Below are positions 807 through 35,050 of a stretch of 64,000 nucleotides of DNA, piece by piece. Position numbers and translations under genes: made by a program. This DNA is from Calothrix sp. FI2-JRJ7 (GTDB lineage Bacteria > Cyanobacteriota > Cyanobacteriia > Cyanobacteriales > Nostocaceae), in NCBI GenBank assembly GCA_019359675.1, contig JAHHGX010000081.1, positions 1 to 64,000 on the forward strand, in the 5' to 3' direction. The notes beneath the pieces are model-generated. The model ran no database searches. It was not told the DNA's origin and saw only the letters and a program-made list of their open reading frames with translations. The first letter of the stretch is position 1, and every line of letters starts with the position of its first letter.

Positions 807-857
807 GCTGAGAAAGAGCTAAGAAAAAATATTTCTAAATTTATATAAATTCTCAGC
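807..857 (+). promoter_or_regulatory. Candidate OmpR-type operator upstream of the DUF4079 gene
   Basis: Two adjacent 11-bp units, GCTGAGAAAGA (807-817) and GCTAAGAAAAA (818-828), match at 9 of 11 positions. An inverted copy, TTCTCAGC, follows at 850-857. Related CTGAG repeats with the same 11-bp period lie upstream of the genes starting at 5623 and 5970. Tandem half-sites one helical turn apart are typical of OmpR/PhoB-family regulators, and such a regulator is encoded at 4436-5113. Confidence 0.5.
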
Positions 858-934
858 TATACATAATTTAGTTCTTGGTAACACCACCGATAATTGTTCT
901 TATCGAAAACAGGGACATGTCAAAAGGTGCTTAT

Positions 935-1654
935 ATGAACTTAGTAGATTTTCTAGGGCTTGTTCATCCTTTCATCGCAATTTTCTTTGTTTTTCCCTTA
1001 CTTGGCATCGTGGTTAACTTTGCCTGGGCAACACGTCAGCGTCGTTTACAAAGCAAAAGTGCAGGTAAGAGCAAAATTCCAGCGTCGGTTGGTGTTGAAC
1101 ATAAACAATTGGGGAGTTGGCTAACAGGCGCCATTGTGGGATTAACTTTGATAGGATTAGCTCATCCAATCGGCAAACATATTATTACGAATCAAGTTTG
1201 GAGCAAGGCGCCGTTTAAAGTAATTTTTATTTTGTTGATGTTTGTAGCGACTATTATATCTTTAGTATTCCTCTACCGTGCTAATACAAAGCTATGGCGG
1301 TCTGTGTTTGCAACTCTCACAGGTGCGGGTTTAGTAACTTTAGGATTTCAAGACGGAGTGTTTCGTCGTGATAACGAATGGTTTTGGTCGCATTACTATA
1401 TCGGTATGGCTGCGGCAATGCTGATGATTTTCTCTTTAGCTATTGTACCCGAAATTTATAAAGATAAGTCACATCGCTGGCGCCTAATTCACACGATTTT
1501 AAATTGCGTTGCTTTGTTATTATTTATGGGACAAGCAATGACAGGCACGCGAGACTTATTAGAAATTCCTTTAAGTTGGCAAGAACCTTATATCTATAAA
1601 TGTGATTTTGTAAATAAAACTTGTCCCATATCTCAACCGGAATTAAAAAAGTGA
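935..1654 (+). CDS. DUF4079 multi-pass membrane protein, cytochrome b561-like
   Basis: This is a hydrophobic protein of about 239 residues with five or six predicted membrane segments. Histidines sit at helix ends (LVHPF, LAHPIG, SHYYIG, LIHTILN), a pattern that could ligate haem. The SHYYIG...IHTILN...QAMTG part is clearly related to the short DUF4079 protein at 34586-35050. The family is cyanobacterial and uncharacterised; resemblance to b561-type electron carriers is inference. The ATG at 935 is favoured by an AAAGG element upstream; ATG 917 and TTG 875 are also in frame. The stop codon overlaps the GTG start of the next gene (GTGA), implying translational coupling to that sensor kinase. 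The C-terminus has a CDFVNKTC pair that could form a disulfide. Confidence 0.75.
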   Translation: MNLVDFLGLVHPFIAIFFVFPLLGIVVNFAWATRQRRLQSKSAGKSKIPASVGVEHKQLGSWLTGAIVGLTLIGLAHPIGKHIITNQVWSKAPFKVIFILLMFVATIISLVFLYRANTKLWRSVFATLTGAGLVTLGFQDGVFRRDNEWFWSHYYIGMAAAMLMIFSLAIVPEIYKDKSHRWRLIHTILNCVALLLFMGQAMTGTRDLLEIPLSWQEPYIYKCDFVNKTCPISQPELKK

Positions 1655-3069
1655 GTAGATTCAACAGATTATTTCCTAAAATTGACTCTTTTTCATTACA
1701 ATTTCGTTTGACAATCGGTGTTATCATAGTTTCTGCTTTTGGATTAGCTGGTCTTGCTAGTTGGACTGGTTGGAAAATGCAACGAATTTTAATCGATAGT
1801 CATAAGCGGAATATTCAGGAAATCGCTTCACGTCTACCGCGCGATGTCGAAGTTTACAGTGAGATGTTGCCAATTGAGACTGCATTACAAAAAGCAATTG
1901 ACAATCGAACGGAAAATGACACTTTGTTATGGGTAAAAAGTCAAGATACAAATCAAATACTAGCTAAATCAAATAATTTCAATCCTGTATCTGGCTCTAA
2001 CATTGCTGAATTAATTTCTCTTACACAAATGCCTGATAAAGCAGAAATTTACGCGGTTAAAGGACATTACTTTGTTTTATGCGGTGAAAAATTAAGAATC
2101 AAAGGTGAGTTAATAGGTGAAATTTATATAGCACAAGATATTACCCGTGACCAAACCATGTTTGTCACACTGCTACATAATGTAGGTATCGCTGGAATTG
2201 TGGTAATTGTAATAATATCAGCAACAATTGCATTCTACATTAAAAATTCCCTCCAACCTCTACGACAAATTAGCCAAATGACAGCAGTAATTCAAGCAGA
2301 AGATTTAGACTCATATAAGTTACACCTTGCTCAGGCGCCGACAGAGGTTAAAGAACTCGCGCAAACTGTTAATATGATGTTGTCTCGATTATCTCAAGCT
2401 TGGGAAAAAGAACGACAATTTACCAGTAATATTTCTCATGAACTGCGAACACCATTAACTGTTGTATATGGATATTTACAAAGTGTACTAAGAAGACAAC
2501 AAAATTTAACCGAAATTCAGAAAGAAGCTTTGCAAACAGCAGCATCAGAAGCAGAACGTACCATTCATATATTACAAGATTTACTCGACTTAGTTAGAAT
2601 AGATAGTAGGTATGGGCATTTTGATATTAAACCTTGTACGTTAAATGATATAGTTTCCGACCTTGTGGAGATGGCATATCAAAATAGTAATAGACAAATT
2701 AAAATTGAGGCGCCTACTCATCCAATTATTGTAAAAGCAGATAGCAACAAACTCGAAAAAGTATTACTTAATTTGATTGATAACGCAATTAAATATTCTC
2801 ATCAAGATACACCCATAGTTATAAAGTTAAAGCAAATTAAAAACGAGGGCATAATTGAAGTTTTTGACAATGGCTACGGTATTCCCTTACAACACCAATC
2901 TCGCATTTTTGAGAGATTTTATCGTGTAGATGACGCGCGCAGTTCCAATGGTGGTACTGGTTTAGGTTTATCAATTGTTAAAAGCTTTATAGAAAGTATG
3001 GGTGGTACAGTTATGGTGAGTTCTAAGATAAATCAAGGTAGTGTATTTACAATTATTTTACCTTGTTGA
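1651..3069 (+). CDS. Membrane sensor histidine kinase (HAMP-HisKA-HATPase)
   Basis: The 472-residue kinase has a first membrane helix at about residues 15-40, an extracytoplasmic sensor of about 135 residues, a second helix at about 177-197 (GIAGIVVIVIISATIAF), HAMP, and a dimerisation domain with phospho-acceptor His in ISHELRTPLT (about 263). The ATPase domain has an N box (LIDNAIKY), G1 (DNGYGIP) and G2 (GGTGLGLSI). The GTG start overlaps the stop of the DUF4079 gene by 4 bases, so the two are cotranslated. An earlier in-frame TTG would lie inside the upstream gene and is less likely. The likely partner is the OmpR-type regulator at 4436-5113. The signal sensed is unknown; coupling to a putative redox membrane protein suggests an envelope or redox cue. 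Confidence 0.88.
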   Translation: MSRFNRLFPKIDSFSLQFRLTIGVIIVSAFGLAGLASWTGWKMQRILIDSHKRNIQEIASRLPRDVEVYSEMLPIETALQKAIDNRTENDTLLWVKSQDTNQILAKSNNFNPVSGSNIAELISLTQMPDKAEIYAVKGHYFVLCGEKLRIKGELIGEIYIAQDITRDQTMFVTLLHNVGIAGIVVIVIISATIAFYIKNSLQPLRQISQMTAVIQAEDLDSYKLHLAQAPTEVKELAQTVNMMLSRLSQAWEKERQFTSNISHELRTPLTVVYGYLQSVLRRQQNLTEIQKEALQTAASEAERTIHILQDLLDLVRIDSRYGHFDIKPCTLNDIVSDLVEMAYQNSNRQIKIEAPTHPIIVKADSNKLEKVLLNLIDNAIKYSHQDTPIVIKLKQIKNEGIIEVFDNGYGIPLQHQSRIFERFYRVDDARSSNGGTGLGLSIVKSFIESMGGTVMVSSKINQGSVFTIILPC

Positions 3070-3072
3070 TAT

Positions 3073-4305
3073 TTATGAATGGTTTGCAGGTAATATTATA
3101 CTCACGGTTGTTCCTTGTTCGGCATTAGATGTAATTACTAACTTCCCACCGTGTGCTTCAACAATACGTTTAGTTATTGCAAGTCCCAGTCCTGTACCAT
3201 CCGGTTTCGTTGAATAAAATGGTTGAGTTAGTTTTGATAATACTTCTAGTGCTATTACAGCGCCACTATTATGAACATTGATTCTAACTTGATTGATATT
3301 TGATACAATATCTAACTTAATAGTATCTCCTACGTTTACGGCTTCATAAGCATTACGGATTACATTTATTAATACTTGTTTTAACTTGTCTTTATCTCCG
3401 AGTACCTGAACGTTCGTACTTGCAGGAGTAAATTTTATATATCTCCCCTCTGCCTCTAGCATATGTAGAAACTCTATAATACATGTAACGAATTCGTTGA
3501 GACAAATTGGCACCACTTGTAAAGCTTGGGGTTTAGCATAAAGTAATATTTCTTGTAATAATCTTTCTAAACGATTACCTTCATCTAGCGCTAGAGATAA
3601 TCGTAATTTTGCAGCATCATTCAAATCCAGTTTATTAAAATAATTCAATCCCATTTTCATAGTTGTCAATGGATTACGAATTTCATGAATAATACATGCA
3701 GCAAATTCACCAATTGCCGCAAGACGTTCTTGCTCTACAAGTTGAGCTTGTGCTGCTTTTAATTCTTCACTTCTCTGCGCGACTTCAGCTTCTAACAGTT
3801 CATTAAATTGCTGCTGTTGTTTATAAAGATAATAGTTATCTATTGCTGTAGCGGCACGTTCTGCAAATAATTCCACTATATTAACTTCTGAAGAAGAAAA
3901 ATTGCGTGGTTCTTTATGGAATGAGCAAATTGTACCAATAACTCCTGAATGGGAAGTGCGTAGTGGTATTCCTAAGTAAGCTTGATAACCTTCTGGAGCT
4001 TGACCATATTCTGTACAGCACTTAGTATCTTCGACTATTAAACTGCGTCCAGTTTCTATAACTGTTCCGGATAATTGACCATGTACAGAATAAGTACCTA
4101 TTTCTCTACCTAAATCTATACTACTAGCCAATACCTTGCCAAAGCCTTGCTGGCAAATAGTTACAACAGACCAATCAATACTAATTAACTCATTAACGCC
4201 ACAAGCTATTTCTTTTAAATATTCGCTTAATTCACCATTTCGATGACTAAGCGACGATAAAACCTCTATTGTCCGCCTTTGCCGCCAGTAGAAGTCATTA
4301 GACAT
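3073..4305 (-). CDS. GAF-domain histidine kinase, cytoplasmic
   Basis: This 410-residue protein lacks membrane helices. A GAF domain spans about residues 22-160 (VEDTKCCTEYG, YLGIPLRT, ICSFHKEPRNF), then a coiled coil of about 40 residues, the phospho-acceptor His in IIHEIRNPLTTMK (about 206), and an ATPase domain with N box (VIRNAYEA) and G2 (GTGLGLAIT). It resembles cyanobacterial kinases that read a small molecule or chromophore through GAF, but no chromophore-binding cysteine motif is obvious. It is convergent with the membrane kinase (3-base gap) and lies 130 bp downstream of the regulator gene on the same strand, so it may share its transcript. A GCTGAAAA sequence just upstream (about 4360 region) resembles half of the putative operator of the cluster. 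Confidence 0.85.
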   Translation of the reverse strand: MSNDFYWRQRRTIEVLSSLSHRNGELSEYLKEIACGVNELISIDWSVVTICQQGFGKVLASSIDLGREIGTYSVHGQLSGTVIETGRSLIVEDTKCCTEYGQAPEGYQAYLGIPLRTSHSGVIGTICSFHKEPRNFSSSEVNIVELFAERAATAIDNYYLYKQQQQFNELLEAEVAQRSEELKAAQAQLVEQERLAAIGEFAACIIHEIRNPLTTMKMGLNYFNKLDLNDAAKLRLSLALDEGNRLERLLQEILLYAKPQALQVVPICLNEFVTCIIEFLHMLEAEGRYIKFTPASTNVQVLGDKDKLKQVLINVIRNAYEAVNVGDTIKLDIVSNINQVRINVHNSGAVIALEVLSKLTQPFYSTKPDGTGLGLAITKRIVEAHGGKLVITSNAEQGTTVSIILPANHS

Positions 4306-4435
4306 GATATACCTAAATAAAAAAATACCTATCTTATAGACTTAACACTTGATAGGACTTTTTCAGCTAAATAAAAACTTAAGATTACTGGCGCCAGTGA
4401 TAAATAATTGTTAAATTATGATATATTTTACAGTA

Positions 4436-5113
4436 TTAATTGTCGCGTAATGCATACCCGATACCCCGCACCGTATGAATTAAGCGTTTTTCATTATTTG
4501 CTTCCAACTTCAAACGGACATAGCGAACATAGACTTCTATAACGTTAGAGTCTCCAACAAAATCATAACCCCAAACTGTTTCTAAAATTTGCTCTCTGGT
4601 AAATACCTGACGCGGGTAACTCATTAAATACTCAAGCAAATCAAACTCTTTCGCTGTTAGTTCTATTGTTCTGTTACCTCGAAATACTTCACGAGTGCGA
4701 CGGTTTAACTTTAAATCTTCAAATTGTAATATATCAGAACTATCTTCTTGAGTACGACGCAGATGAGCGCGGACTCTTGCTAATAACTCCTCAATACTAA
4801 AGGGTTTGACAACATAATCATCGGCGCCAGCATCCAAACCAGTCACACGGTCGTTAACTTCATCTTTTGCAGTTAACAAAATAACAGGAATTTTACTCCC
4901 CGTTGCACGCAGACGACGACAAATTTCTACTCCAGTTAAACCAGGAACCATCCAATCTAAAATCGCTAAATCCGGCGCCGATTCTCGTGCTAAAGTAATT
5001 CCCGTCATTCCATCGTTGGCGACACTAACTTTATAACCTTCGCTAGTTAATTCTAACTCGACAAATCGAGCTAGCTTTACATCATCTTCCACTAAAAGAA
5101 TATGTGCTATCAT
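4436..5113 (-). CDS. OmpR/PhoB-family response regulator
   Basis: The 225-residue protein has a receiver domain (residues 1-120) with acidic pair DD at 10-11, phospho-acceptor Asp53 (ILDWMVPG), Thr81 and Lys103 (VVKPF). A winged-helix DNA-binding domain follows at about 128-225 (LTAKEFDLLEYLM, VWGYDFVGDSNVIEVYVRYVR, TVRGIGYAL). Family members activate or repress transcription after phosphorylation by a cognate kinase. It sits between two kinases and next to genes whose upstream regions share 11-bp-period CTGAG repeats, which are the natural candidate targets. It resembles the cyanobacterial RppA/ManR group, but an exact orthologue cannot be named from sequence alone. A GGGG-type ribosome site lies ahead of the ATG. 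Confidence 0.9.
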   Translation of the reverse strand: MIAHILLVEDDVKLARFVELELTSEGYKVSVANDGMTGITLARESAPDLAILDWMVPGLTGVEICRRLRATGSKIPVILLTAKDEVNDRVTGLDAGADDYVVKPFSIEELLARVRAHLRRTQEDSSDILQFEDLKLNRRTREVFRGNRTIELTAKEFDLLEYLMSYPRQVFTREQILETVWGYDFVGDSNVIEVYVRYVRLKLEANNEKRLIHTVRGIGYALRDN

Positions 5114-5127
5114 AATTTCCCCGAATT

Positions 5128-5160
5128 AGATACCCGACTTGTTTAAAAAGTCGGGTATCT
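5128..5160 (-). terminator. Perfect 13-bp hairpin between the secreted-protein gene and the regulator
   Basis: AGATACCCGACTT and its exact complement flank a 7-base loop. On the minus strand it follows the stop of the 5198-5623 gene and precedes the regulator start by about 15 bases. There is no strong T run, so it may be an intercistronic processing or attenuation hairpin as easily as a terminator. Confidence 0.55.
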
Positions 5161-5197
5161 TAATAATATTATTTTAACCCGAAAGATTAACTACTCA

Positions 5198-5623
5198 TTA
5201 TTTGACTTCGCTTGGAGCAAAAGCGGTTATTTTACCTTGTTTAACTGCAACAACTACATCGTAAGTTGCACAATAAGCAAATGTAGTATTATTAGCTTTA
5301 TTATAAAGATTTACAACCATACCTGCACCACCAGGTTGAACAGCAATTGGTTCTAAATCACCGAAGAAATAACGACGGAGTTCATCACCACTGCCAAACA
5401 TTCCTTTATGTTTAGTCAGCATAGTGATTTTTTGAGCAGGAGTTAAGCCTGTAACATCTTTCATTGCTTCTGCTTGAGCAGAACGCTGAGTAGATGTCAT
5501 CATTGTGCTTGTTTCTTTTGCTACCGCTTGATTCGACTGTAAGTTAATTGCACTGAGTGAGGCGCCACCAATTGTGACTAAACCAGTTAAAGCAGCAGTA
5601 GTTACAATAGTTTTGAGATTCAT
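5198..5623 (-). CDS. Secreted or periplasmic protein of unknown function
   Basis: The 141-residue product begins with an export signal (MNLKTIVTTAALTGLVTIGGASL, likely cleavage near residue 35, AVAKE). The mature part has a charged helix (TPAQKITMLTKHKGMFGSGDELRRYF) and a beta-rich C-terminus with one cysteine (FAYCATYDVVVAV). I do not recognise the family. It shares its intergenic region with the divergent DM13 lipoprotein, and both promoters carry CTGAG repeats. It lies upstream of the regulator on the same strand, so it may be a target or a secreted accessory of this signalling cluster. Confidence 0.7.
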   Translation of the reverse strand: MNLKTIVTTAALTGLVTIGGASLSAINLQSNQAVAKETSTMMTSTQRSAQAEAMKDVTGLTPAQKITMLTKHKGMFGSGDELRRYFFGDLEPIAVQPGGAGMVVNLYNKANNTTFAYCATYDVVVAVKQGKITAFAPSEVK

Positions 5624-5682
5624 TTTGGATGATTCCTTTATAAAATCGTCTGTCTTCGATGTTTATTAGTATTGACTGCATT

Positions 5683-5704
5683 CCTGAGTTTTTGCTGAGA
5701 ACAG
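5683..5704. promoter_or_regulatory. Candidate OmpR-type operator, secreted-protein side
   Basis: CCTGAGTTTTT (5683-5693) is followed immediately by GCTGAGAACAG (5694-5704), so CTGAG is repeated at exactly 11 bp. It lies 60-80 bp upstream of the gene starting at 5623, in a position suitable for promoter control. Confidence 0.45.
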
Positions 5705-5800
5705 GATTAGCTGGTGTTAAAAACTACCATTATTTTTTTAATCTACTGAATGGTAGTAAGCATTTATTCATGCATGACATAATTTAAGAGCTTAAAATTA

Positions 5801-5840
5801 GCTGAGAAAACCATAAGAACTATCAAAGGCAAATCTCAGC
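5801..5840 (+). promoter_or_regulatory. Candidate OmpR-type operator upstream of the DM13 gene
   Basis: GCTGAGAAAAC (5801-5811) is followed by the weaker unit CATAAGAACTA (5812-5822), and an inverted TCTCAGC lies at 5834-5840. The direct repeat plus inverted copy mirrors the arrangement at 807-857 upstream of the DUF4079 gene. Confidence 0.45.
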
Positions 5841-5969
5841 TTTATAGACTGAAACATTTAGAGCTTTATAACCTTTAACCGGATAGCTTAAGCAACAATC
5901 AAGTTAGTTAGTTAAAGCTAAAGCAAAACCTATATCACTAACTGATGCTATATCGAGGAATATAAAGCT

Positions 5970-6467
5970 ATGAAATTAAGAAGTCTTTTAATGCTAAGTC
6001 TCGCATCCCTGTTGATAGCAAGCTGTGCAAAAGAAATTAGTGCAACTGAAAATCATGTGGCTATGAAGCCTTCAAATATTCCTGTAGTTAAGTTAGCACA
6101 ATCTCAACAAACTGCGAAAGTTGGTACTTTTGTTTCTGGAGAGCATACAACACAAGGTACAGCAAGCATTATAACAAATAACGGCAACTCTTTTCTAAAG
6201 CTTGATAAGTCATTTAAAACTTCCGACTCTGGGCCAGATTTAGTTGTAATTTTGCATCGTTCAGATAACGTAATTGGTTCAACTAAGCCACCCTCCTATT
6301 CCTTAAAAAAAGGAGATTACGTCATTCTTGGCCGCTTACAAAAATTTCGCGGCACCCAAACTTATGCTATTCCTAAAAACATTGATTTAGCGAATTATAA
6401 ATCTGCTGCTATTTGGTGCCGTAAGTTCAATGCTACCTTTGGTGCTGCCAAGTTAAGCAATAGCTAA
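5970..6467 (+). CDS. DM13-domain lipoprotein
   Basis: The 165-residue product has a lipoprotein signal with lipobox LIASC (Cys19), placing it on the outer face of a membrane. Residues about 50-160 match the DM13 pattern: F-x-x-G-E-H-T-T-Q-G near the start, then GPDLVVILH, a GDYVILGRLQKFRGTQTYAIP block, and the closing AAIWC-RKFNATFGAAKL with the conserved cysteine (Cys150). DM13 is predicted to take part in extracytoplasmic electron transfer, often with DOMON or cytochrome b561 partners. A b561-like DUF4079 protein is encoded in the same cluster. The EamA permease gene starts 18 bp downstream and probably shares the transcript. Confidence 0.85.
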   Translation: MKLRSLLMLSLASLLIASCAKEISATENHVAMKPSNIPVVKLAQSQQTAKVGTFVSGEHTTQGTASIITNNGNSFLKLDKSFKTSDSGPDLVVILHRSDNVIGSTKPPSYSLKKGDYVILGRLQKFRGTQTYAIPKNIDLANYKSAAIWCRKFNATFGAAKLSNS

Positions 6468-6485
6468 TAAAGTATTAAGTTTGTC

Positions 6486-7520
6486 ATGGTTAAGAAACAC
6501 AACAGAATTTCAGGACAGATTTGCCTCTGGCTTGCAATTCTGATTTTTGGAGCATCTAGTGCCATTACCCGAAAGTTAACAGAAATTGGCGCCCAACATT
6601 TTATAGATGCTCGTAATCCTATTTCTCTTTGTAATGTTTTATTTGTTGGTAATATATGCGCCTTGTTGATTTTAATTCCGATTTACAGGCGCCAGTGGAA
6701 CAAAGCAACATTAAGGAAACTATCAAGAAAAAACTGGTTAAATCTAACAAAGGTTGCAATTTTATCGGGAGCTATCGCACCTGCTTTAATCTTTCAAGGT
6801 TTAGCATTAACGAATGTTAATAATGTTGTTTTGATTGGACGCTTAGAACCACCTTTAACATTAGCTTTATCAGTTTGGCTATTGAAGCAAAGAATAAATA
6901 TTTGGGAAACTGTAGGAGCAGTTATTGCCTTTATTGGTGTCACCTTAACCATAATTCTTCAACCTCCACAACCCATGACGCATATGGGAGTTCATATAGG
7001 TGTTGGGGAAATATTGTCTGCAATAGGAGCTATGGCTTTAGCTGTTTCTACAATTATTAGCAAACAACATCTCTCTAAAATTCCTTTAGGAATCTACAGT
7101 GTATTTCGTACAGCTTTGGGAACAATAATATTTTTCTTTCTTGCATTAATAATTTATGGTCGCGACCATTTTACAGATGTATTTTCGCCTTTTCTTTGGC
7201 AGTGGATGTTTGTATATGGTTTTGTAATTGTAGTTCTAGGTCAGTCATTTTGGATTAAAGGCTTGAAAGTTTCCAGTGTATCGGTAGCTTCTTTAATTAG
7301 CTCATTTACGCCACTCGTAGGCATTTTAGCAGCTTACTTTATTTTGGGTGAGACGCCGACTATGGCTCATTATATTGGTGGTAGCTTGATTTTGGTTGGA
7401 GTATTGTTGAGCCAAATTGGAATTAGGCGCCAAGCTTCTCTTAGAACTGGGTTGCCCAAAATAATTTTTACTTCAGCACAACACAAGCTAGAAACAACTA
7501 TAGGATTTAAAGGAATGTAA
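6486..7520 (+). CDS. EamA-type DMT-superfamily permease
   Basis: The 344-residue protein has about ten membrane helices in two EamA repeats (about residues 13-158 and 170-312). Typical features are the GASSAITRK first helix, the NVNNVVLIGRLEPPLTLALS stretch and a second-repeat ending with FILGETPTMAHYIGGSLILVGVLL. DMT permeases export or import small metabolites; the substrate cannot be deduced. It starts 18 bp after the DM13 lipoprotein gene and is probably cotranscribed, so it may fall under the same regulator. The 3' end overlaps the remnant antitoxin gene read from the other strand. Confidence 0.85.
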   Translation: MVKKHNRISGQICLWLAILIFGASSAITRKLTEIGAQHFIDARNPISLCNVLFVGNICALLILIPIYRRQWNKATLRKLSRKNWLNLTKVAILSGAIAPALIFQGLALTNVNNVVLIGRLEPPLTLALSVWLLKQRINIWETVGAVIAFIGVTLTIILQPPQPMTHMGVHIGVGEILSAIGAMALAVSTIISKQHLSKIPLGIYSVFRTALGTIIFFFLALIIYGRDHFTDVFSPFLWQWMFVYGFVIVVLGQSFWIKGLKVSSVSVASLISSFTPLVGILAAYFILGETPTMAHYIGGSLILVGVLLSQIGIRRQASLRTGLPKIIFTSAQHKLETTIGFKGM

Positions 7521-11144: not shown

Positions 11145-14100
11145 ATGACCGCAACAATATCAAACACCAACCTCCCTAGCGTTTACGACCCAAAAGCCGC
11201 TGAATCCAAGTGGCAACAGTTTTGGGAAGATAACCATATATATAAGGCAGACCCGAATAATCAAGCCGAGCCGTACTGTATCGTTATTCCGCCTCCTAAC
11301 GTTACGGGTAGCTTGCATATGGGACACGCTTTTGATAACTCGCTTATCGATACATTGGTTCGCTACCATCGAATGAAAGGCAAAAACGCCTTATATCTAC
11401 CAGGTACTGACCATGCGAGTATTGCAGTACAAGCAATTCTTGAAAAGCAACTCAAAGCAGAAGGCAAAACTCGCTACGACTTGGGACGCGAAAAGTTTCT
11501 CGAAAAGGCTTGGCAGTGGAAGGCTGAGTCTGGAGGGACTATTGTCAATCAGTTGCGGCGTTTAGGTGTGTCGGTGGACTGGACGCGCGAACGGTTCACT
11601 TTAGATGAGGGTTTATCAAGGGCCGTATTAGAAGCTTTCGTTAAACTTTATGATGAAGGACTAATATATAGAGGCGAGTATTTAGTAAACTGGTGTCCTG
11701 AATCGCAATCGGCGGTTTCAGATTTGGAGGTTGACCAAAAAGAAGTAAATGGCAACCTTTGGCATTTCCGCTACCCACTCTCTGATAATTCGGGTTTTGT
11801 TGAAGTTGCCACAACTCGTCCAGAGACAATGTTGGGTGATACAGCTGTTGCGGTTAACCCAAACGACGAACGTTATAAAGATTTCATTGGCAAAACTTTA
11901 ACTTTGCCAATAATGAATCGAGAAATTCCGATTATTGCTGATGAACTTGTTGACCCAACTTTTGGGACTGGTTGCGTTAAGGTTACACCTGCCCATGACT
12001 TGAATGACTTTCAAATGGGTAAACGTCACAACTTGCCGTTTATCAATATTATGAATAAAAACGGCGCCCTCAATGAAAACGCCGGAGAATTCCAAGGGCA
12101 AGACCGTTTTGTTGCGCGTAAGAATGTTGTTGCAAAGCTCGAAGAGCTAGGTGTTTTAGTTAAAATTGAAGAGTACAAACATACAGTTCCATATAGTGAA
12201 AGAGGTAAGGTTCCTGTTGAACCGCTACTTTCCACGCAGTGGTTTGTTAAAATTCGTCCTCTGGCAGATAATGCGCTGGAATTCCTAGATAATCAAAATT
12301 CTCCAAACTATGTCCCGCAGCGTTGGAGTAAAGTTTATCGTGACTGGTTAGTTAAGCTAGAAGATTGGTGTATTTCTCGACAGTTATGGTGGGGTCATCA
12401 AATTCCTGCTTGGTATGCAGTTAGCCAAACAAATGGAGAAATTACTGATACAACTCCTTTTGTTGTTGCTAAAAACGAAGAAGAAGCAATACAAAAAGCG
12501 AAGCAACAATTTGGCGAAGATGTAAAACTCGAACGTGACCCAGATGTGTTAGATACTTGGTTTTCTTCTGGGTTGTGGCCCTTTTCTACAATGGGTTGGC
12601 CTGAACAAACTCCTGATTTAGCGAAGTATTATCCTACTAGCGTTTTGGTTACTGGCTTTGACATCATATTTTTCTGGGTCGCTAGAATGACTATGATGGC
12701 TGGGCATTTTACTGGACAAATGCCGTTTCAAGATGTTTACATCCACGGGTTAGTTCTCGATGAGAAGGGCAAAAAAATGTCCAAGTCAGCGGGTAATGGT
12801 ATTGACCCGCTACTACTTATCGATAAATATGGTACTGATGCACTGCGATATACGTTAATTAAAGAAGTTGCTGGCGCCGGACAAGATATTCGTTTAGACT
12901 ACGACCGTAAGAAAAATGAATCGCTGTCGTTTGAAGCTTCGCGTAATTTTGCCAACAAATTATGGAATGCTTCGCGGTTCGTAATGATGAACTTGGATGA
13001 ACAAACTCCTTTACAGTTAGGAGTTCCGCAACCAAGCGAACTTAGCGATAAGTGGATACTTTCACGGTATAACCAAGTTATTAAAGAAACTAGTAATTAC
13101 ATAGATAATTATGGTTTGGGTGAAGCTGCGAAAGGTCTTTATGAGTTTATTTGGGGTGATTTTTGCGACCAGTATATAGAACTTGTTAAGTCTCGGTTGC
13201 AAAGTGATGCAGACCCAAGTTCGCGAAAAGCTGCACAGCAGACGCTGGGTTATGTTTTGGAAGGGATTTTGAAGTTACTGCATCCTTATATGCCTCATAT
13301 TACTGAGGAAATTTGGCATACGCTTACTCAAAAAGGCGCCGATTCCAAGGAGAGTTTATCGTTACAGCGTTATCCAGAGGTTGATGAGGGTCAGATTGAT
13401 GTAGGGTTGGAAGAACAGTTTGATTTGTTATTTGGGGTTATTCGCACTATTCGGAATTTACGTGCGGAAGCTGATGTTAAACCGGGTGTGAAGGTTGCTA
13501 TTAATTTGCAGACTGATAGTAGTAGGGAACGCGAGGTTTTAGCTGCTGGGTCCGTTTATATTAAGGATTTGGCGAAGGTTGAGAGTTTGAGTGTTGGTGG
13601 TGGGGAGGTAAAGACGGGGGAAAGTACGGGGGAAAGCATGGGGGAAAGCACTGAAGTGCTTACAACGGTGCTTACAACGACGACTACAAAATTCCAAATT
13701 CCTCAAAAGTGGCGCCTTTATCTCAAGATTATTGGTGTAATACTTTTAGTTAGAGTTGGGTTTGCTGTTTTTAATGCTATTAATCATGTTGCTGTAATTG
13801 CTGGGTTTTTTGAGGTAGTCGGTCTTGGTTTCTCTGGTTGGTATTTGGCAAATAATGTTTTTAACAAAGAAAAAAGACAGCAAATACTTCAAACTGCATC
13901 CAAGTCGGTAGAAAAAGTACCACAACCAACGGTAGAATCTGAGCCTAATCAAGAAGAAGCTATTGCAGGTGTTATCGGTACTGTACAAGTTATTTTGCCG
14001 TTAACCGGAGTCGTTGATATTGCTGCCTTTTGTGCCAAACTACAGAAAAAACTTGAAAAAATCGAAAACGATATCAAGTCTCTTTCTGCTAGACTTAATA

Positions 14101-14219
14101 ACCCTGGTTTCGTAAATAATGCTTCCCCTGAAGTAGTTCAAGGTGTACGCGATAATTTAGCCGAAGCCGAAAAACAAGCACAAATCTTACGTGACCGCAT
14201 TCAAAAATTATCACAATAA
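11145..14219 (+). CDS. valS: Valyl-tRNA synthetase with inserted CAAD membrane domain
   Basis: The 1024-residue class I synthetase charges tRNA-Val. It has the HIGH-type motif in [13 protein letters not shown] (about 52-62), an editing domain, the KKMSKSAGN motif near residue 541 and an anticodon-binding domain. A C-terminal coiled-coil arm (about 945-1024, [19 protein letters not shown]) is typical of ValRS. Between the last two lies an extra segment (about 848-925) with two membrane helices ([20 protein letters not shown], then [20 protein letters not shown]). This matches CAAD, the cyanobacterial aminoacyl-tRNA synthetase appended domain known to anchor such enzymes in thylakoid membranes. 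The linker before CAAD is a recent-looking tandem repeat (GES-T/M-GES). Typical ValRS without CAAD is about 880-950 residues. Confidence 0.96.
13612..13685 (+). repeat. valS: Tandem microrepeat encoding the valS linker
   Basis: Three near-identical 12-bp units (GGGGGAAAG plus three bases) are followed by two copies of GTGCTTACAACG. They encode [13 protein letters not shown] and [11 protein letters not shown], the flexible spacer ahead of the CAAD domain. Confidence 0.75.
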
Positions 14220-34585: not shown

Positions 34586-35050
34586 ATGGAACTATCTCCA
34601 TCGGTTAAGTACGGGTTGAATTTCGTCCACCCAGTCCTGATGTGGGGGTTATTATTAGTATCACTGTACGCAGCTTATCTGGGTTTAAAAATACAACGTA
34701 CCCGTAGCGCGCAAGGTGAAGAAAAGAAAGAGCTAATTAAAGGACGTTATAATGTCCGTCACTTTCAAATTGGTTCTTTGCTATTAGGCTTTATGGTGGC
34801 AGGTTCTGTAGCGGCGATGGGTGTGACTTATATTAATAACGGCAAGTTATTCGTTGGTCCCCACTTGCTTATAGGACTTGGAATGACAGTTCTAATTGCG
34901 TTTTCAGCATCGCTTTCCCCTTTTATGCAAAAAGGCGCCAATTGGGCACGCATGACGCATATTTTAATCAATTTCACTATATTGGGTTTGTTTACTTACC
35001 AAGCTATTAGTGGTGTACAGATTGTACAGAGAATTATAAGTAAAGCTTAA
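34586..35050 (+). CDS. Short DUF4079 membrane protein
   Basis: The 154-residue, four-helix membrane protein has histidines near helix ends (FVHPVLMWG, VRHFQIG, VGPHLLIG, MTHILIN), a pattern like di-haem b561 proteins. It shares the GLGM...THILIN...QAISG half with the larger family member at 935-1654. The family is cyanobacterial and its function is unknown. A GGGGAG ribosome site precedes the ATG. Downstream, a GGTCGCTGGA...TCCAGCGACC inverted repeat (35064-35091) is a likely bidirectional terminator. Confidence 0.85.
   Translation: MELSPSVKYGLNFVHPVLMWGLLLVSLYAAYLGLKIQRTRSAQGEEKKELIKGRYNVRHFQIGSLLLGFMVAGSVAAMGVTYINNGKLFVGPHLLIGLGMTVLIAFSASLSPFMQKGANWARMTHILINFTILGLFTYQAISGVQIVQRIISKA

Follow-up and report, generated by a model that had tools for sequence, protein, structure and literature searches.

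The locus and its genes

The window analyzed here is a stretch of 64,000 nucleotides from Calothrix sp. FI2-JRJ7 (contig JAHHGX010000081.1, positions 1 to 64,000), and the focus of this report is a gene cluster at positions 935-7520, close to the start of the contig (C81) in a genome of 8.66 Mb. According to profile scans, the cluster comprises a DUF4079 membrane protein, a HAMP kinase, a GAF kinase, an OmpR-type response regulator, a DM13 lipoprotein, an EamA exporter and a small secreted protein at 5198-5623, for which SEC is used as a working name (Table 1). This gene content, apart from the exporter, had been put forward in a previous reading of the DNA from its letters alone (the sequence-only reading), and was confirmed by the profile scans and by direct reading, as was the translational coupling of DUF4079 to the kinase: the GTG start of the kinase at 1651 overlaps the DUF4079 stop codon TGA at 1652-1654 (GTGA at 1651-1654, read directly), and 15 of the 25 relatives' loci that hold both genes show such an overlap of the frames as well, with starts assigned mechanically. 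The HAMP kinase and the regulator of the window are encoded on opposite strands with 1.4 kb between them. Judged by DUF4079, the closest named relatives belong to Calothrix and Dulcicalothrix.

The locus is probably the local version of a cyanobacterial module which responds to oxidants in the cell envelope under two-component control, a system that is widespread in cyanobacteria and apparently undescribed in the open-licence literature. The features which can be read from sequence are its gene content, the conserved association of the genes, the operator, invariant residues and the pairing of kinase and regulator in operons.

Table 1. Genes and candidate regulatory sites of the cluster (positions in the window).
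Feature	Position	Strand	Remarks
Candidate operator, 11-bp tandem GCTGAGAAAGA-GCTAAGAA	807..825	+	upstream of the DUF4079-kinase operon
Additional candidate half-site TTCTCAGCT, promoter of the DUF4079-kinase operon	850..858	-	also seen in relatives
DUF4079 membrane protein, b561-like four-histidine core, CX6C tail	935..1654	+	PF13301, E 3.3e-46
HAMP-HisKA-HATPase sensor kinase, GTG start	1651..3069	+	profile matches; conserved periplasmic Met72/Met127
GAF-domain histidine kinase	3073..4305	-	found in part of the related loci
OmpR/PhoB-type response regulator, probably paired with the HAMP kinase	4436..5113	-	profile matches
SEC, small secreted protein, invariant Cys118	5198..5623	-	without named family
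Candidate operator, 11-bp tandem CTGAG-N6-CTGAGAA, upstream of SEC	5684..5701	+	read directly; relatives alike
Candidate operator GCTGAGAAAAC-CATAAGAA, upstream of DM13	5801..5819	+	relatives alike
DM13 lipoprotein, invariant Cys150	5970..6467	+	PF10517, E 1.2e-32
EamA-family exporter	6486..7520	+	divergent neighbor of SEC in 26/31 related loci with both

Conservation of the gene neighborhood

Conservation was assessed in 140 genomes of the window's family, in which thresholds for the same gene were set by identity to the proteins of the window or of a related locus (L125); most of these genomes are related to one another, and the counts should not be read as independent events. Window-type DUF4079 (E 1e-30) is encoded in 107 of them, SEC in 85, the regulator (E 1e-80) in 115 and DM13 in 103. 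At least two of these four genes lie inside 10 kb in 92 of the 140 genomes, and the objection named beforehand, namely that the association might not extend beyond this strain, thus fails. The distances between pairs were taken from coordinates available for 107 (DUF4079), 83 (SEC), 110 (regulator) and 95 (DM13) genomes and are lower bounds. The partnership of DUF4079 and DM13 suggested by the sequence-only reading recurs within 10 kb in 54 of the 86 genomes with both genes, and within 1.5 kb in 47; the same 10-kb distance joins SEC to DUF4079 in 36/81 genomes, the regulator to DUF4079 in 32/101, SEC to the regulator in 27/81, the regulator to DM13 in 21/88 and SEC to DM13 in 9/66, where about 0.2 pairs per 80 genomes would be expected by chance. 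The 83 SEC-bearing genomes include 81 that encode DUF4079 and 81 that encode the regulator (Fisher 3e-13 and 2e-11, kinship ignored).

The order of the genes is shuffled yet recurrent. SEC and EamA are divergent in most loci that hold both (26/31, Table 1), and SEC precedes DUF4079 on the same strand in 20 of 26. Across the class, 80 of 388 genomes encode SEC, spread over 48 of 160 genera and several families. In 20 stretches around SEC outside the window's family, DUF4079 was found in nine, the regulator in eight, the GAF kinase in four, a TlpA/ResA-like thioredoxin (TRX) and EamA in three each, and DM13, the kinase, CcdA, cytochrome b561 and MsrP in two each.

A candidate operator shared by the envelope genes

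As operator we propose a tandem repeat of CTGAGAA with an 11-bp period; direct repeats of 11 bp are usual for OmpR/PhoB-type regulators. CTGAGAA is the top 7-letter word in the 300-bp upstream regions of both SEC and EamA, and GCTGAGAA is the top 8-letter word upstream of DM13, while other words lead in the 300-bp upstream regions of DUF4079, the kinases and the regulator. At SEC, a TGA lies 11 bp to either side of CTGAGAA in 33 and 15 of 45 seeds and at +22 bp in 14; at DUF4079, the two flanking positions hold TGA in 6 and 4 of 10 seeds. When each genus is represented by a single sequence, the two-unit tandem, a pattern which was derived from the very loci counted, is found ahead of SEC in 25 of 29 genera and ahead of EamA in 16 of 23, compared to 10 of 414 control upstreams; SEC and EamA frequently share one intergenic region, and their two counts are not independent. 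The GAF kinase has the tandem in one of five genera.

The three-unit form CTGAGAANNNGCTGAN8TNAA occurs at 61 sites in 55 of the 140 whole genomes and its reversed pattern at none, and 49 of the 61 sites are no more than 520 bp away from a listed SEC match, just upstream of SEC. When the second spacer was made one base shorter as a control, 7 sites were obtained (one of which, in G007, also fits the right form) and 3 with the reversed pattern. Among 30 SEC loci from across the class, 21 belong to other families and had not been used for drawing the pattern; 10 of these 21 carry the tandem ahead of SEC, counted up to 350 bp before the SEC frame or in its first 60 bp.

In the window strain, the pattern GCTGAGAA-N5-TNAGAA, itself built on the two sites of the window, matches exactly only at 807-825 and 5801-5819 in 8.66 Mb. 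Allowing up to one mismatch yields 13 sites versus 9 for the reversed pattern, and only the exact form is specific. The SEC-type pattern, whose loose gaps were drawn by eye, has no match in this genome. For the shared operator candidates noted in the sequence-only reading, the exact form is unique to two window sites, and a third tandem lies at 5684-5701, upstream of SEC.

The MsrP-containing operon and the wider putative regulon

The surroundings of all 12 three-unit sites away from listed SEC genes were inspected. In genus g7, three of them precede an operon, or its end, which encodes a methionine-rich peptide, TRX, a CcdA-like protein, a cytochrome b561 of prokaryotic type and a molybdopterin oxidoreductase resembling MsrP: two sites (L125, L126) are ahead of the full operon and the third (L127) is ahead of b561-MsrP alone, about 530 bp on. 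In genus g47, two sites are found upstream of EamA (L129 and L130, the latter also with broken pieces of SEC) and one at a contig end (L128). MsrP-like genes of the g7 type (82-87%) are located inside the SEC/DUF4079 cluster in other genera. The order in L154 is operator, SEC, methionine-rich peptide, TRX, CcdA, b561, MsrP and DUF4079, with a convergent regulator-kinase pair and a tandem upstream of the kinase; L062 of the same genus shares this arrangement, and L048 and L056 are variants of it. In Kovacikia (Leptolyngbyales), SEC and the operon from the methionine-rich peptide to MsrP are 5.6 kb apart, each with a tandem, and two loci of other families (L195, L204) have TRX-CcdA-b561-MsrP behind SEC, with DUF4079 and a gap of 1.9 kb in between in L195.

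The MsrP-like enzyme passes PF00174 (122.2 bits, cut-off 24) and reaches 97 bits with NF003767, below the equivalog cut-off of 207. The adjoining b561 proteins of the scanned loci pass PF01292 (60 and 63 bits, cut-off 30.1), and several lone MsrP genes have no b561 beside them. With the MXKDX profile TIGR02953, the methionine-rich protein of L126 (4232-4693) scores 29.4 bits against a cut-off of 41, and that of L125 (5047-5493) gives no match. A more distant MsrP-like type, which includes the copy of the window strain, has the tandem in none of eight loci (L039, L155-L158, L160-L162).

Sensor kinase and response regulator

The periplasmic domain of the HAMP kinase, taken from the first to the second membrane helix, was compared among 30 sequences. 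Trp94 is invariant (30/30), Met127 and Met43 are kept in 29 sequences each, His51, next to the membrane, in 27, and Met72 and Met170 in 25 each; Cys144 is found in 13 and His139 in 7. As a sequence pattern, this suggests methionine oxidation, or the binding of Cu(I), rather than thiol sensing. Kinase and regulator are taken to be partners because they form joint operons on one strand, with the kinase before the regulator in 7 of 15 loci holding both; kinase-regulator operons were further seen in L154, L140 and L211. In some genera the kinase overlaps DUF4079, and elsewhere it joins the regulator operon, DUF4079 then lying behind SEC or MsrP.

Among NCBIfam profiles, the kinase scores best with TIGR01386, a subfamily of heavy-metal sensors (229.5 bits, cut-off 292.55), and the regulator scores 237.3 bits with the corresponding regulator subfamily TIGR01387 (cut-off 279.2). 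Assignment of the regulator to NblR (NF045914) was rejected at 276.8 bits against a cut-off of 300, and scores for RppA and RpaB were likewise under cut-off. In the accessible parts of the open-licence literature on OrrA, no binding motif was found with which the regulator could be compared.

DUF4079, SEC and DM13

The b561-like histidines noted in DUF4079 by the sequence-only reading are borne out by conservation: all 59 window-type sequences compared share H11, H56, H153 and H186, and the same four residues are present in 22 of 22 when the window protein is aligned with 21 short-type DUF4079 proteins. C223 and C230 of the CX6C tail are also invariant (59/59). The structural model contains helices at 3-38, 53-85, 153-176 and 181-209, with one invariant histidine per core helix, a layout which would suit two haems paired across the membrane. 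This layout is b561-like, and homology to b561 is no more than possible. The profile PF03188 stays below its cut-off in the copy of Nostoc linckia (15.5 bits, cut-off 23), PF01292 is weak and below cut-off (5 of 25 members, best E 0.1), and unrelated families such as DUF998 match better (13 of 25 members, best E 2.4e-5). A Foldseek search of the PDB with the model gave no match at E 0.001 and unrelated top rows, and in a second look rhodopsins and GPCRs ranked above b561, so that a b561 fold is not claimed. The PDB sequence search gave no match at E up to 10, and nothing beyond a gene table was found on DUF4079 in the open-licence literature.

Some form of DUF4079 is present in 145 of 145 family genomes, and the window itself encodes a second, short DUF4079 with the same four histidines (34586-35050, forward strand). 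On plasmid2 of Nostoc linckia (L123, 7195-10768), DUF4079 is accompanied by genes for a ferritin-like protein and for an ECF sigma factor with a ChrR-like cupin anti-sigma factor, another and possibly oxidant-type regulator being paired here with the same membrane protein; no other module gene was found at this locus. A further recurrent cluster in Nodosilinea/Leptolyngbya (L081, L083 and similar loci) combines a homolog of window-type DUF4079 with an esterase, an alcohol dehydrogenase, DUF4168, TetR and UPF0182, and no module genes were found there save a weak hybrid-kinase match.

SEC has no match in Pfam or NCBIfam at E 0.1 or among PDB sequences at E up to 1, and structure prediction from seven sequences was unusable (mean pLDDT 45); its C118 is invariant in 52 of 52 sequences. 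DM13 passes PF10517 with 113.1 bits (cut-off 25) and keeps C150 in 16 of 16 sequences. Electron transfer is given in the Pfam description of DM13, and nothing on DM13 together with a histidine kinase in cyanobacteria was found in the open-licence literature. Three genomes of genus g45 (G083, G104, G130) hold 6-8 DM13 matches each, some of them double within one open frame. In L041, L037, L059 and L060, SEC copies have genes for group-2 sigma factors at distances of 0.1 to about 4.5 kb; a sigma factor was not accepted as part of the module, its presence near SEC genes not being constant.

A proposed envelope oxidant response

Oxidation in the envelope is proposed as the common theme because the set brings together an MsrP-type enzyme with its b561, thioredoxin and CcdA, a methionine-rich peptide, DM13, a membrane protein with four histidines and secreted proteins with invariant cysteines. 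We infer the signal, the binding of the regulator to the operator, the haem and the direction of electron flow as follows. The membrane kinase would detect periplasmic oxidants, most likely via the oxidation of its conserved methionines, and would phosphorylate the OmpR-type regulator, which in turn would bind the 11-bp tandem CTGAGAA repeats and switch on envelope genes. Its putative targets are SEC, EamA and DM13-DUF4079, and in other genera also the methionine-rich peptide, the TlpA-like thioredoxin, CcdA, cytochrome b561 and the MsrP-like enzyme. DUF4079 may act as a di-haem conduit of b561 type, with an outer pair H11/H153 and an inner pair H56/H186, moving electrons across the membrane to the cysteine-bearing periplasmic proteins DM13 and SEC. 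More speculatively, a hitherto undescribed redox network of the envelope, common to cyanobacteria, might exist, in which DUF4079 as a new b561-like conduit reduces SEC and DM13, as new cysteine partners, through its periplasmic CX6C tail and offers a second route of reducing power into the periplasm beside or instead of MsrPQ, under one methionine-sensing two-component system.

The nearest working model for the cyanobacterial module is HprSR-MsrPQ of Escherichia coli, in which methionines of HprS have a role in sensing HOCl/chlorite. In both cases an MsrP-type molybdoenzyme with its b-type membrane partner is associated with a membrane kinase and an OmpR-type regulator. Unlike the E. coli system, the cyanobacterial one adds SEC, DM13, DUF4079, EamA, the methionine-rich peptide, TRX, CcdA and an operator of its own, its enzyme scores under the MsrP cut-off, and in the window strain the cluster lacks such an enzyme. 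In the SigF/NrsF-YedY1-MrpX system of Azospira suillum, MrpX is reportedly a methionine-rich scavenger of hypochlorite; this system likewise joins a methionine-rich periplasmic peptide to a b-type membrane partner and an enzyme of YedY type, but there a sigma/anti-sigma pair takes the place of the two-component system. Cytochrome b561 proteins are also partnered with DOMON or DM13, and the four histidines of DUF4079, which would suit two haems, and its DM13 partner recall these proteins. Regarding regulation, one study describes the induction of msrPQ by E. coli HprSR under reactive chlorine (PMC12503329). The accessible part of another reports split msrP genes of Limnospira, which are repressed by gamma radiation and for which MsrQ was not readily identified, and names no regulator for them (PMC8400943).

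To our knowledge, little is known about the protection and repair of envelope proteins in oxygen-producing bacteria. If the proposal holds, this process would gain a named regulator and operator in cyanobacteria along with a set of effectors, roles are suggested for DUF4079 and SEC, two families without function, and for bacterial DM13, and the culturable Nostocales offer a ready test bed.

Weighing the evidence

Besides the shared intergenic regions of SEC and EamA, several observations weigh against an envelope oxidant response. The two-unit tandem is not enriched at DUF4079 (1/25 genera) or at the regulator (0/11) and is weak at the kinase (3/16) and at DM13 (2/8, the single word CTGAGAA occurring in 6/8), where TGA also shows no recurrence in the 11-bp phase; the low count at DUF4079 may be due to its frequently not being first in its operon. 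Half of the 12 three-unit sites away from SEC (L131-L136) have no module-gene match beyond weak kinase similarity and may be due to chance. Eleven further MsrP loci away from SEC (L143-L153), picked by identity to the g7 MsrP gene and including one cut by a contig end (L148), have a tandem upstream in L152 and L153 only. The regulator is more than 10 kb from DUF4079, SEC and DM13 in 63 of 110 genomes, and kinase and regulator stay under the cut-off of every NCBIfam family among the best 25 of 89 and the best 25 of 106, respectively. Finally, the window cluster lacks MsrP, b561, TRX and CcdA, and the sole MsrP-like match of the strain at E 1e-40, on another contig (C65) with 66% identity, has no tandem upstream. 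The strain keeps the control circuit, SEC, EamA, DUF4079 and DM13 in a cluster without the MsrP operon, and this part of the module was invisible to the sequence-only reading because it is absent here.

A response to copper, or to metal in general, would start from the same residues: a CusS-like kinase could bind Cu(I) via its methionines and His51, and the methionine-rich peptide and DM13 could handle periplasmic copper. The heavy-metal subfamilies TIGR01386 and TIGR01387, the methionine-rich protein and the conservation of Met43, Met72, Met127, Met170 and His51 speak for it. However, both heavy-metal scores are below their curated cut-offs, NblR and PhoB outscore the heavy-metal family for the regulator, and no metal efflux or copper-oxidase family was found among those recurrent neighbors which are annotated, part of the total. 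Moreover, E. coli HprSR is a member of the heavy-metal sequence class of two-component systems, and responds to oxidants. We regard copper as a rather unlikely signal. The sequence-only reading finds support in its claim of a redox-type envelope system governed by a single two-component circuit, whereas its specific model, in which DUF4079 and DM13 exchange electrons and the coupled kinase reads the redox state of DUF4079, appears improbable. It draws on the GTGA overlap and its recurrence in relatives, on the proximity of DM13 and DUF4079 and on the four invariant histidines; kinase-regulator operons without adjacent upstream DUF4079, and the position of DUF4079 behind SEC or MsrP, make DUF4079 look like a target and not an input. 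A kinase that reads DUF4079 is possible but less likely than DUF4079 as a target. Lastly, the composition of the cluster, shuffled between genera, and the presence of EamA and a GAF kinase without obvious redox role could be taken as signs of a loose set of unrelated envelope genes, which share a regulator site without a common biochemical task. This we consider very improbable, as membership is retained despite the shuffled order in loci of 32 family genera and of other families, which argues for a shared function.

Other features of the window

Two further features lie outside the cluster. A short remnant of a cation P-type ATPase is located at 63-428 on the reverse strand, in which the N-terminal domain PF00690 runs into GDGVNDAPAL and most of the pump is gone. 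The valyl-tRNA synthetase gene at 11145-14219 (forward strand) encodes a hydrophobic insertion close to the C-terminus, which resembles the cyanobacterial CAAD domain.

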